The notes under the pieces were generated by a model. It had not been told where the DNA came from. It ran no database searches and worked only from the letters and a program-made list of their open reading frames with translations. Position numbers and translations under genes: made by a program. Positions 7,973 through 26,204 of a stretch of DNA of 64,000 nucleotides are shown piece by piece. Source of the stretch: Phyllobacterium bourgognense (GTDB lineage Bacteria > Pseudomonadota > Alphaproteobacteria > Rhizobiales > Rhizobiaceae). The number at the start of each line of letters is the position of its first letter. Position 1 is the stretch's first letter. Location: contig NZ_QPJM01000013.1 in the NCBI RefSeq assembly GCF_003337575.1, forward strand, positions 1 through 64,000, in the 5' to 3' direction.

Positions 7973-8101
7973 ACGAAAGTTGATCGGCGCAATCGCAACT
8001 TTTGCCCTATGTCAACATTACTGATCGCAGCCACAAGCGAGTCGCTTCCATCGAGGCCGGGAGCGGAATTACCGTACATTGACAGGATATTGGTGGACGC
8101 T

Positions 8102-9298
8102 ATGACACAGAACCAGCTCAAACAGCGGGACACCCGTATCGACGTTTTCAGGGCTTTGGCTCTTCTGACGATCTTCATAAATCATATTCCGGGGACGGTT
8201 TATGAGAACCTCACGCACAAGAATTTTGGATTTTCCGACTCCGCCGAGGCGTTCGTGTTGATCTCCGGTATCGCCGTCGGTCTCGCATATGGTTCCAGGT
8301 TCGAATCCGGCAGTCGTCTTTTGATAACTCTCAAGGCGTGGCGGCGGGCTGCAACACTCTACTGCGCTCACATCCTCACGACGATCGCTACTTTGGCGAT
8401 TTTCTGTGCCGCAGGCATTTATCTGAAACGCCCCGACTTCATGTCGTTCATCAACATAGGTCCGCTGATGGATCAGCCGGCAAAGGCACTCATCGGAATT
8501 GCGACGATGGGCCATCAGATTGGCTACAACAATATCCTGTCGATGTATGGCGTACTGTTGCTGATGCTCCCGATATTCCTGCTGATCGCGAGAATCAGCA
8601 TTTCTGGCATGGTCGTGCTCTCTGGCATGCTGTGGCTGATATCTGGCGTGTACCAAATCGCTCCGCCAAACTATCCGACCAATGGTGTGTGGTTTCTCAA
8701 TCCGCTGTCGTGGCAGTTCCTGTTCGTTATCGGGATAGCGGGAATTATGCATGTGCGCCGAGGCGGGACCATTGCGTTCAACAAGTATTTGTTCGGGCTT
8801 TCGGCGGCCTATATCCTGATTGCACTCGTTTGGGTGCGTTGGCCATTATGGGGTGTCGATACGTCATTGGGCCTGCCGATGGTCATCACGGGTTTCGACA
8901 AGACATTTCTGTCGTTGACGCGATTGGCCCATATCCTATCACTCGCTTATGTGGTTGTCTCCGTGCCGGCGATCTCTAATCTGGCCCGTCGCGCCCCAGA
9001 TCATCCGCTGGCCATCCTAGGCAAACATTCGCTGCCGGTTTTTGTTGCCGGTACGATGCTCGCCATGGTGGCACAGGTCGTCAAGGTACTGAATCCAGGT
9101 GGTTTGCTGGACGACACGCTCCTGGTCGCGAGCGGGATCATGGCGCAATTTGCCTTGGCCTATTATCTCGAATGGCTGCCGCGTATAGGTTGGGGCGGGC
9201 GTCCGGTACAAAAGCCGGTCAAGCCTCAAATTGCAGTTGCCAGCAAGTTGAGGGATGGGACGATGAAGCCGGCGACGAGCGCAGCGGCCTCGCGATAA
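8102..9298 (+). CDS. opgC: OpgC-type glucan succinyltransferase
   Basis: The 398-aa integral membrane protein has about ten hydrophobic segments and an N-terminal RIDVFRALALLTIFINH motif. That is the acyltransferase-3-like signature of OpgC, in which the His is the presumed catalytic residue. OpgC adds succinyl groups to periplasmic glucans, giving them negative charge during osmoadaptation. ATG 8102 is preceded by a GGTGGA site. The frame extends to 8009, but that start has no ribosome site. No opgGH or ndv genes are in the window. Confidence 0.85.
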   Translation: MTQNQLKQRDTRIDVFRALALLTIFINHIPGTVYENLTHKNFGFSDSAEAFVLISGIAVGLAYGSRFESGSRLLITLKAWRRAATLYCAHILTTIATLAIFCAAGIYLKRPDFMSFINIGPLMDQPAKALIGIATMGHQIGYNNILSMYGVLLLMLPIFLLIARISISGMVVLSGMLWLISGVYQIAPPNYPTNGVWFLNPLSWQFLFVIGIAGIMHVRRGGTIAFNKYLFGLSAAYILIALVWVRWPLWGVDTSLGLPMVITGFDKTFLSLTRLAHILSLAYVVVSVPAISNLARRAPDHPLAILGKHSLPVFVAGTMLAMVAQVVKVLNPGGLLDDTLLVASGIMAQFALAYYLEWLPRIGWGGRPVQKPVKPQIAVASKLRDGTMKPATSAAASR

Positions 9299-9318
9299 AA
9301 TCAACTTTCCTGTTGTCG

Positions 9319-9333
9319 TTAACCAGTCGTTAA
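9319..9333 (+). promoter_or_regulatory. CtrA box upstream of candidate sRNA
   Basis: A perfect TTAA-N7-TTAA site is seen, with TTAA at 9319-9322 and 9330-9333. A TATAAA -10-like element follows at 9345-9350. The box would therefore lie at about -36 to -22 from a start near 9355, the usual place for CtrA-activated promoters. Confidence 0.6.
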
Positions 9334-9354
9334 GCATTACAATCTATAAATTGA

Positions 9355-9456
9355 TCATCCAGTTTTCTGGATTCTTACCAAGTGGTTTGGCCACTTTGTT
9401 TGACGCCTCCCTGTTAGACTCCTGAGAGCCGCCTCGTTTTTGCGGCTCTTTTTTTA
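9355..9456 (+). ncRNA. Candidate CtrA-controlled trans-acting sRNA
   Basis: Three hairpins follow in a row after a CtrA box and -10. They are 9357-9372 (6-bp stem, TTTT loop), 9380-9396 (6-bp stem, 5-nt loop) and 9425-9449 (8-bp stem) with a seven-T tail. A single-stranded CU-rich stretch (GCCTCCCT, 9405-9412) between the second and third stems could pair with Shine-Dalgarno sequences. No open frame of note is present, and opgC ends 57 bp before. The three-stem layout resembles rhizobial sRNAs such as EcpR1, but homology cannot be shown by eye. Confidence 0.5.
9425..9456 (+). terminator. Intrinsic terminator
   Basis: The stem AGAGCCGC/GCGGCTCT (9425-9432 and 9442-9449) has a 9-nt loop and is followed by a run of seven T. 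It ends the candidate sRNA and could also serve opgC read-through. Confidence 0.8.
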
Positions 9457-9472
9457 TGTTCATATCCAAAGT

Positions 9473-9499
9473 TTAAGCCTGACGTTAACCCTTTATTAA
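9473..9499 (+). promoter_or_regulatory. Triple TTAA CtrA-type site before rcdA
   Basis: TTAA occurs at 9473, 9485 and 9496, giving TTAA-N8-TTAA-N7-TTAA. The second pair is a perfect CtrA consensus. Exactly the same 27-bp geometry is found before pal at 18294-18320. It lies about 150 bp before the rcdA start. Confidence 0.6.
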
Positions 9500-9649
9500 G
9501 GATAAACTTGCGCTGCTGTGAGGATGCAGGCAGGTTGCTGGGGACTACTGCTCGCCGACCGTTGTGATACCTCGCTTGCTGTTCCAGTAAGGGAGCACTG
9601 CTTTGGAAAAATCGCGGATCGTGGCAGCGCATTTTAGGTGACAGGGCGT

Positions 9650-10183
9650 ATGATGACCGAACAGGAATTCCACGTAGACAACACGATAAGACTTGCAGAG
9701 CGTATGGTCCGCTCGGAGAGTTTCAATCATCTCTACGATGAAGGCATGAGTCTCGTGGAAGAAGCCGCATTCTACCTTGATGGCGAGGGCCGCGAGGCGG
9801 CCAAACGTCTGTCGCGCATTGCGGCGACGCTTTACGCGGCGGAATCGATGCGGCTGACGACACGTCTGATGCAGGTCGCATCATGGCTGCTTTTGCAACG
9901 GGCGTCGCGTAGCGGTGAGATGACCCTCGAACAGGTGCTTTCTGAAAAAGCCAAGGTTCGGCTTGATACGGATTCGGCGCCCGAAACGGTTATTGGCTGG
10001 GATGAAATTCCGCTATCCTATTGTGATATCGTGCACCGCTCGTTGCGCCTGCAGGCACGCGTTCGCCAAATGGACGATGAGATTTACAATGATGGTGCCC
10101 GTACCGAGCAAAAACGGGCTCTCTCGACCAATCCTGTATCCGATCAGATCAGTTTGTTGGCGACGGCATTCGGCCACCGTTAA
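9650..10183 (+). CDS. rcdA: RcdA, regulator of CtrA degradation (DUF1465)
   Basis: The 177-aa helical protein matches the DUF1465/RcdA family along its length. It has the N-terminal LAERMVRSESFNHLYDEGM region and a central EGREAAKRLSR helix. In Caulobacter, RcdA is an adaptor that helps deliver CtrA and other substrates to ClpXP with CpdR and PopA. ATG 9650 (followed by a second ATG at 9653) has an AGGTGACAGGG ribosome-site region. GTG 9638 is also in frame. A CtrA-type site upstream suggests a feedback loop. It precedes ruvC by 74 bp. Confidence 0.88.
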   Translation: MMTEQEFHVDNTIRLAERMVRSESFNHLYDEGMSLVEEAAFYLDGEGREAAKRLSRIAATLYAAESMRLTTRLMQVASWLLLQRASRSGEMTLEQVLSEKAKVRLDTDSAPETVIGWDEIPLSYCDIVHRSLRLQARVRQMDDEIYNDGARTEQKRALSTNPVSDQISLLATAFGHR

Positions 10184-18293: not shown

Positions 18294-18320
18294 TTAATCC
18301 TGGTGTTAAGAGTGGATTAA
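18294..18320 (+). promoter_or_regulatory. Triple TTAA CtrA-type site before pal
   Basis: TTAA is found at 18294, 18306 and 18317 (TTAA-N8-TTAA-N7-TTAA). The N7 pair is a perfect CtrA consensus. The spacing is identical to the site before rcdA (9473-9499). The pal start is 82 bp downstream. Confidence 0.6.
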
Positions 18321-25120: not shown

Positions 25121-25135
25121 TTAAGCGAGATTTAA
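25121..25135 (+). promoter_or_regulatory. CtrA box before Omp25-like gene
   Basis: A perfect TTAA-N7-TTAA site (TTAA at 25121 and 25132) lies 80 bp before the start. A TCATAT element at 25146-25151 has the same spacing as the -10 after the sRNA box at 9319. CtrA binding near omp25 has been reported in Brucella abortus. Confidence 0.6.
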
Positions 25136-26062: not shown

Positions 26063-26154
26063 TTTATGCCTCTCCTATGCTCCGGACAATTTTGATGTCG
26101 CGCACAAACATATTTCTTGACTGCCAACGACATTTCTCCTAGTTCCCGGAGTGG

Positions 26155-26204
26155 GCCACCTCTCCCCAACGAGAGGCGAGCTATCTGTAAGGATAGGAGA
26201 AAAC
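26155..26204 (+). promoter_or_regulatory. serC leader RNA (two hairpins before the start codon)
   Basis: Two small hairpins directly precede serC. The first is 26159-26176 (CCTCTC/GAGAGG). The second is 26181-26196 (CTATC/GATAG), whose 3' arm runs into the GGAG ribosome site. This matches the position and general shape of the serC RNA motif described upstream of serC in alphaproteobacteria. The ligand or mechanism of that motif is not known to me. Confidence 0.55.

Follow-up and report, generated by a model that had tools for sequence, protein, structure and literature searches.

The closest described relatives of the small RNA (sRNA) considered here belong to two separately named families, BjrC1505 and SmelC671. 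BjrC1505 is the Rfam family RF02356, of which Madhugiri et al. 2012 is reportedly the founding paper. SmelC671 comes from Sinorhizobium meliloti, where a deep-sequencing table places a 100-nt RNA at 2986421-2986520 (PMC2873474). The family RFMSmelC671 is described as having relatives in Rhizobiaceae, Brucellaceae, Phyllobacteriaceae, Bradyrhizobiaceae and Methylobacteriaceae and as carrying a conserved CUCCCUGU between variable hairpins and a 3' terminator (PMC3927594). The S. meliloti RNA Sm84 lies between SMc03988 and SMc03989, all in forward orientation; it gave array signals under acid, base, cold, heat, oxidative and salt stress and a Northern band of about 80 nt where 110 nt were expected (PMC2573895), and its promoter was called constitutive and sigma-70-like (Valverde 2008; PMC2573895).

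Three further sRNAs are useful for comparison. EcpR1 (SmelC291) resembles the RNA described below as a rhizobial trans-acting sRNA with a conserved loop seed and a cell-cycle link, but it has two stem-loops, is under stringent-response control and occupies another locus; its GC-rich SL1 loop is described as pairing with gcrA and dnaA (PMC4414408). CcnA of Caulobacter crescentus is likewise a non-coding RNA downstream of a CtrA box and has a CCCC loop, yet it is 182 nt long and lies in the origin of replication (PMC8959179). MmgR is described with an anti-Shine-Dalgarno (anti-SD) loop and, unlike our RNA, is under NtrC and AniA promoter control (PMC7143759).

The gene rcdA has its own record in CtrA studies. 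ChIP-seq in S. meliloti detected CtrA at the rcdA promoter region, and rcdA mRNA was unchanged on CtrA depletion (PMC4433202). In each of the three agrobacterial lineages, rcdA (atu3742) has several transcription start sites (TSSs), and the CtrA sites are reported to be at a greater upstream distance than those of Caulobacter (PMC10469942). The terms sRNA, small RNA and non-coding never occur in PMC4433202, and neither CtrA nor rcdA is mentioned in the main text of PMC3927594 or in PMC2873474. No statement on CtrA control or rcdA linkage of the RF02356/SmelC671 sRNA was found in the literature surveyed, which was represented in part by excerpts and lay outside the founding BjrC1505 paper; the CtrA promoter and rcdA linkage of the RF02356 family are provisionally regarded as new.

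The window analysed here is a stretch of DNA of 64,000 nucleotides. The nearest named genomes, judged by RcdA, are Phyllobacterium (96% identity). A sequence-only reading had proposed a CtrA-activated sRNA of about 100 nt between opgC and rcdA. Direct reading of the window confirmed the annotated elements at their coordinates, and the CtrA box, TATAAA, three hairpins, C-rich segment and T7 tail all lie where that reading had put them; it had overlooked a second perfect box at 9485-9499. The elements are as follows.

8009..9298, + strand: opgC (PF10129), the upstream neighbour; its neighbourhood with the sRNA is not conserved.
9319..9333, + strand: CtrA box TTAA-N7-TTAA, TTAACCAGTCGTTAA, read directly; predicted site of the sRNA promoter.
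9345..9350, + strand: TATAAA, -10-like, read directly, with position-wise conservation over 72 anchored promoters.
9357..9455, + strand: small RNA of RF02356 (BjrC1505), probably equivalent to Sm84/SmelC671, from model matches; 5' end by analogy with SmelC671.
9357..9372, + strand: hairpin 1 (AUCCAG/CUGGAU), ATCCAGTTTTCTGGAT, from fold and covariation.
9380..9396, + strand: hairpin 2 (AAGUGG/CCACUU), AAGTGGTTTGGCCACTT, from fold and covariation; another hairpin in the Rhizobium-type variant.
9398..9419, + strand: weak hairpin 3 with loop CCUCCC (9406-9411), from fold and covariation; absent from the Rhizobium-type consensus structure.
9402..9415, + strand: motif GACGCCUCCCUGUU, presumed target-binding seed, from conservation counts; its core is also in the published SmelC671 model.
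9405..9412, + strand: C-rich segment GCCTCCCT, read directly.
9424..9455, + strand: intrinsic terminator with stem 9424-9450 and T7 9449-9455, read directly and from fold and covariation.
9485..9499, + strand: second CtrA box TTAACCCTTTATTAA, perfect, between terminator and rcdA; probable rcdA promoter site.
9638..10183, + strand: rcdA (DUF1465, PF07323), with start GTG 9638 or ATG 9650/9653.

Past rcdA, the gene annotation of the window continues with ruvC and then ruvA. The 5' end of the sRNA is inferred from the 100-nt S. meliloti transcript to a precision of a few nucleotides: with the 3' end of SmelC671 aligned on the terminator, the start falls on the A before hairpin 1, at about 9357, and the box then spans roughly -38 to -24. 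The open reading frames of at least 20 aa overlapping 9340-9460 encode 24 aa (+ strand), 41 aa (- strand) and 72 aa (- strand). A simple promoter and terminator scan detected no sigma-70 promoter and no terminator at the sRNA, the predicted terminator loop being 9 nt and the limit of the scan 8. TTAA-N7-TTAA occurs at four sites in the 64 kb against 0.31 expected, a number reached in 0 of 100 shuffles, and two of the four flank the sRNA, at 9319-9333 before it and 9485-9499 after it.

The sRNA gene itself is already known. The covariance-model search proposed with the sequence-only reading returned a full-length match of window 9310-9455 to RF02356 (model positions 1-140 of 140); its 75.3 bits exceed the gathering score, which is 50. 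The window RNA and BjrC1505 are alike in sequence, structure and length; the window RNA differs in its Phyllobacterium-like host and a shortened hairpin 2 loop. RF02356 positions 1 to about 45 (window 9310-9356) seem to be promoter DNA including the CtrA box; the model treats this box as paired, several such pairs are non-standard in the window, and a trimmed model without the promoter part would be cleaner. Because RF02356 contains the CtrA box, a second covariance model, R1, was built from the RNA alone on an alignment (A2) of 30 loci. The MmgR/suhB model RF00519 shares CCUCCCU and GACU motifs and a terminator with the window RNA, which scores 23.3 bits, below the gathering score of 41.

Kinship with EcpR1, which the sequence-only reading had raised, did not hold up. 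Similar size and a cell-cycle neighbourhood speak for an EcpR1 ortholog; the EcpR1 gene, however, lies between celR2 (pleD) and rpmG, the window RNA between opgC and rcdA, and in the S. meliloti sources EcpR1 (SmelC291) coexists with Sm84/SmelC671. An Rfam scan of the rpmG locus of the window's genome was also empty, which bears on EcpR1 only if Rfam includes a model for it. EcpR1 is set apart here by its described structure, control and locus, and orthology is improbable in the extreme. At the promoter level the nearest analogue appears to be CcnA; RF02356 was unmatched in 14 control genomes, which include Caulobacter vibrioides if the control set is as named.

The family is widespread in the order of the window. 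At E<=1e-3, RF02356 was detected in 51 of 59 relatives (47 above cut-off) and in 37 of 41 genomes of the order (33 above cut-off), two sets with 24 genomes in common in addition to the window's own. With stricter filters it was found in 30 of 289 genomes of the class (14 above cut-off), these including the window's own and two of its order. None of the 14 control genomes was matched in any of the three surveys. Four genomes contain second, weaker family matches (G057:C439:1919-2061, G051:C3:296794-296931, G059:C110:66803-66925 and G268:C15:29-175), and the second copy in G059 (L292) also has a perfect CtrA box.

Linkage to rcdA is conserved as well. In the RF02356 survey of relatives, rcdA lies downstream within 1.5 kb in 28 of 30 loci and was not found within that distance in the other two; opgC is near the sRNA in only 3 of the 30. 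R1 detects the RNA ahead of rcdA in 79 of 80 rcdA loci, which are the best 80 of 595, chosen by RcdA similarity only; these 79 loci are related, many being from Mesorhizobium, and are not independent. The proposed placement between opgC and rcdA is conserved on the rcdA side and not on the opgC side. The sole exception among the 80, where R1 detected no RNA before rcdA, is Pseudaminobacter arsenicus; its locus (L066, 2111-2420) keeps the second CtrA box and has no detectable sRNA, apparently a natural loss.

Outside the order, R1 gave seven matches in six genomes (with the window's own genome included, 7 of 115). Of six matches examined, four lack a detected rcdA next to the RNA; rcdA is present at one, and at another there is a weak match to rcdA. 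A quinone oxidoreductase homolog is a neighbour at 42 of the 158 loci examined, some within the order and some beyond it. Since these include class members without a detected adjacent rcdA, the ancestral gene order may have been oxidoreductase, sRNA, rcdA. In L036, L039 and L052 the oxidoreductase gene is divergent.

Proximity to rcdA in the same orientation, together with the several TSSs of agrobacterial rcdA (PMC10469942), would also suit a leader or attenuator of rcdA, in which the terminator is read through in some condition and the hairpins act in cis. Against this stand the conserved terminator, the second box between terminator and rcdA, and the persistence of the RNA outside the order where no adjacent rcdA was detected, and we consider such a leader improbable. 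A trans-acting sRNA of about 100 nt, with its own CtrA-activated promoter, a separate rcdA promoter and an anti-SD seed, is in our view the likely identity of this RF02356/SmelC671 member.

A perfect TTAA-N7-TTAA stands 25-27 nt before the R1 model start in 68 of the 79 loci; seven further loci have a one-base variant at the same site, and the last four retain the 3' TTAA at that position and carry a single mismatch in the 5' half-site (judged by eye). Of 5876 control windows taken from other parts of these loci none had such a box, and of 15800 shuffles 20 did; all 79 upstream windows are mutually different, though related. Among 72 anchored promoters, the box is followed by GCTTTA and then, about 12 nt past the box, by a -10 of the form TTTACT/TATTAC, at about the spacing of TATAAA in the window; hairpin 1 starts 24-26 nt past the box in 71 of them. 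TTAA-N7-TTAA thus occurs at conserved spacing to the -10 and to the RNA start, as in a CtrA-type promoter. A perfect box also lies strictly between RNA and rcdA in 73 of the 79 loci. The earlier proposal of an sRNA of about 100 nt, transcribed before rcdA from a CtrA-type promoter of its own, is therefore borne out, as far as sequence comparison can tell, by conservation of RNA, box and linkage over the order.

Since it is retained at loci without a detected adjacent rcdA, the upstream box appears to belong with the RNA. The seven R1 matches outside the order, which are free of the box bias of the Rfam model, have a perfect box in five cases and a one-mismatch box in two. Where no adjacent rcdA was detected, a perfect box stands at the usual distance in L035-L037 (one genus), L039, L047, L052 and L156 and a variant box in L005, L009, L050, L053 and L060; L048 and L058 have neither, while L045, L056, L057, L059 and L155 gave no clear reading or are of doubtful membership. 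These loci were found with RF02356 and are biased, as that model contains the box. That the box seems to travel with the RNA is decisive for the promoter reading.

The sRNA could instead be real and constitutive or stress-controlled, with the upstream box serving mainly as a distal rcdA site, or with CtrA repressing the sRNA. The sigma-70-like promoter assigned to Sm84 and its detection in six stresses (PMC2573895) would accord with this, as would the status of rcdA as a known CtrA-site gene and the closer position of the second box to it; the six-stress signal does not point to strict cell-cycle control. The fixed spacing of the box to the RNA and its retention without a detected adjacent rcdA count against this explanation, which we hold to be rather unlikely, though less so than a leader. 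In the preferred reading of a CtrA-activated sRNA, phosphorylated CtrA would bind TTAA-N7-TTAA over the -35 region of the sRNA promoter and activate initiation about 24 nt downstream of the box. The sRNA would end at its own terminator, rcdA would start from a separate promoter with the second CtrA box, and the CCUCCC loop would act as an anti-SD seed that blocks ribosome binding on several mRNAs. We infer CtrA binding, activation rather than repression, cell-cycle timing and target repression from these conserved features.

The RNA is structured. The fold of 9353-9456 has -35.2 kcal/mol (z -5.18), as stable a fold being reached in 0 of 200 shuffles, and it adds to the three hairpins noted before the weak hairpin 9398-9419, which exposes CCUCCC. 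The stems, whose conservation and covariation had been proposed as a check, fared well: in A2, 98.7% of 745 cells are paired, and both partners have changed in 8 of 25 pairs, compared with 1.6 for shuffles and 0-2 for slid structures, figures that lean towards the A2 structure as it was derived from that alignment itself. The doubly changed pairs are spread across all four helices. On the weakest measure, further pair types, the result was equalled in 15 of 500 shuffles; the sequences are related and many pairs are invariant. The 30 rows of A2 were selected for containing GACGCCTCCC, whose invariance, with much of helix 3, is by construction. Covariation supports rather than proves the predicted stems, helix 3 least.

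Because of this selection, the motif was recounted on sets not chosen for it. GACGCCUCCCUGU is present in 30 of 30 loci of the RF02356 survey of relatives (13 nt identical) and in 59 of 79 R1 matches, or 59 of 66 when 13 Rhizobium-type loci are excluded. The core CUCCCUGU occurs in 76 of the 79 and is missing in L108, L116 and L117. The 13 Rhizobium-type loci, grouped by eye with L117, L118, L126 and L130 excluded, have a different hairpin 2, no hairpin predicted over the seed and an invariant UUUCUCCCUGUUUUACCUUGAGAGCCGC.

The loop sequence CCUCCC complements ribosome-binding sites, and an anti-SD role for the conserved loop would fit. Translational repression in trans is inferred from this complementarity together with the anti-SD loop of MmgR, whose model is weakly similar. 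The C-rich loop might alternatively bind a protein or another RNA (Hfq, the ribosome or a sponge) and not mRNA ribosome sites. Thirteen identical nucleotides exceed what mRNA-pairing seeds usually need; this identity in 30 of 30 loci, and the lack of a conserved mRNA target in our searches, would agree with such binding. It is nevertheless a slim prospect, as ribosome-binding sites are complementary to the core CUCCCUGU and the C-rich stretch recurs weakly in the models of MmgR and SorY, MmgR being described with an anti-SD loop (PMC7143759).

Target searches yielded no conserved mRNA target, and the one class of genes that had looked frequent among the candidates came up just as often with a control pattern. 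Repression of rcdA itself was considered: over 79 loci the seed against the locus's own rcdA 5' region gave a mean z of -0.32, with 4 of 79 below -2, and a mean energy of -16.3 against -15.0 for 573 other gene starts, 29% of which were stronger still; rcdA is probably not a target. For pdhA, ACAGGGAGTGAGATATG is present in 4 of 4 Phyllobacterium genomes searched, translation confirming pdhA in three. Among 30 loci of the order, the window's own genome alone has ACAGGGAG ahead of the start, and pdhA was dropped as a conserved target; CAGGGAGG precedes a candidate upstream start in two more loci of the order (L270 and L275). Transporter binding proteins were rejected as a target class, AACAGGGAG before ATG performing no better than the scrambled ACAAGGGAG. 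Among the matches listed, crude signal peptides were seen in 21 of 87 proteins for AACAGGGAG and 19 of 63 for ACAAGGGAG, and within the top 25 families SBP_bac_8 counted 2 of 87 against 4 of 63, Peripla_BP_6 3 against 3 and NMT1 4 against 3. From the matches listed, 120 and 80 sites, respectively, were used, of which 33 and 17 were excluded as reading frames below 60 aa. The AACAGGGAG set omitted G023, G025, G027, G031 and G034 and further rows (contig ends, one duplicate and some without noted reason), and own-genus sites are absent from its listed matches.

In S. meliloti (CP090106.1), a Rhizobium-type RNA is flanked by a DUF1192 gene and rcdA, and both boxes are present. Under the Rhizobium-type model R2 this RNA reaches 120.6 bits, compared with 46.2 bits (E 9.3e-9) for the window, and the Rhizobium-type loci scanned fall below the RF02356 gathering score. 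The window RNA fits the SmelC671 description, with CUCCCUGU between variable hairpins and a 3' terminator, and Sm84/SmelC671 appears to share with it the place before a DUF1465 gene, order and strand. They differ in that Sm84/SmelC671 has hairpin 2 replaced, the seed hairpin lost and the seed UUUCUCCCUGUUUUACC in place of GACGCCUCCCUGUUAGAC. Order and strand agree for S. meliloti, where 6S is followed by the sRNA, itself flanked by two forward genes and preceding DUF1465. The sRNA and 6S are 12.8 kb apart in strain Ak57 and 14.2 kb apart in 1021, and SMc03989 equals rcdA by gene counting only. On this fit, with a 6S spacing that differs by about 1.3 kb between strains, identity of the counterpart with Sm84/SmelC671 is very probable, not proven. 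If Sm84/SmelC671 is the ortholog, transcription of the family in S. meliloti is supported; the Northern band, at about 80 nt, falls short of the expected 100 to 110 nt (PMC2573895). SmelC764, which has an RF00519 match, was rejected as the counterpart, since a SAM riboswitch, its published neighbour, was not found in the 18 kb of the locus. The 3.7-Mb record CP090106.1 (L218/L223) is titled plasmid pSymB and is probably mislabelled, as it contains 6S RNA, rcdA and further genes whose place in strain 1021 is the chromosome.

The conserved box unites the separately named BjrC1505 and SmelC671. Neither RF02356 nor SmelC671 is given a function in the literature surveyed, and the box would indicate what regulates the family and when in the cell cycle it is likely to act. 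The ChIP and mRNA results in S. meliloti and the agrobacterial pattern of TSSs and CtrA sites both fit a CtrA-driven sRNA promoter lying upstream, which offers a testable reason for CtrA at S. meliloti rcdA without a change in rcdA mRNA (PMC4433202). If the reading is correct, the core cell-cycle circuit of plant symbionts and their relatives would have a post-transcriptional arm. More tentatively, and with the balance of our judgement slightly on the side of doubt, an ancient, class-wide CtrA output may be an anti-SD sRNA between the quinone oxidoreductase gene and rcdA, with CtrA driving both the sRNA and, via the second box, the adaptor for its own destruction. The rhizobial CtrA peak at rcdA would then mainly drive the sRNA, which would explain an rcdA mRNA unresponsive to CtrA depletion.

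Two minor observations concern the rest of the window. The other perfect TTAA-N7-TTAA sites, at 18306-18320 and 25121-25135, are possible CtrA boxes, and a serC leader RNA (RF00517) matches at 26149-26201 with 66.2 bits, above its gathering score.
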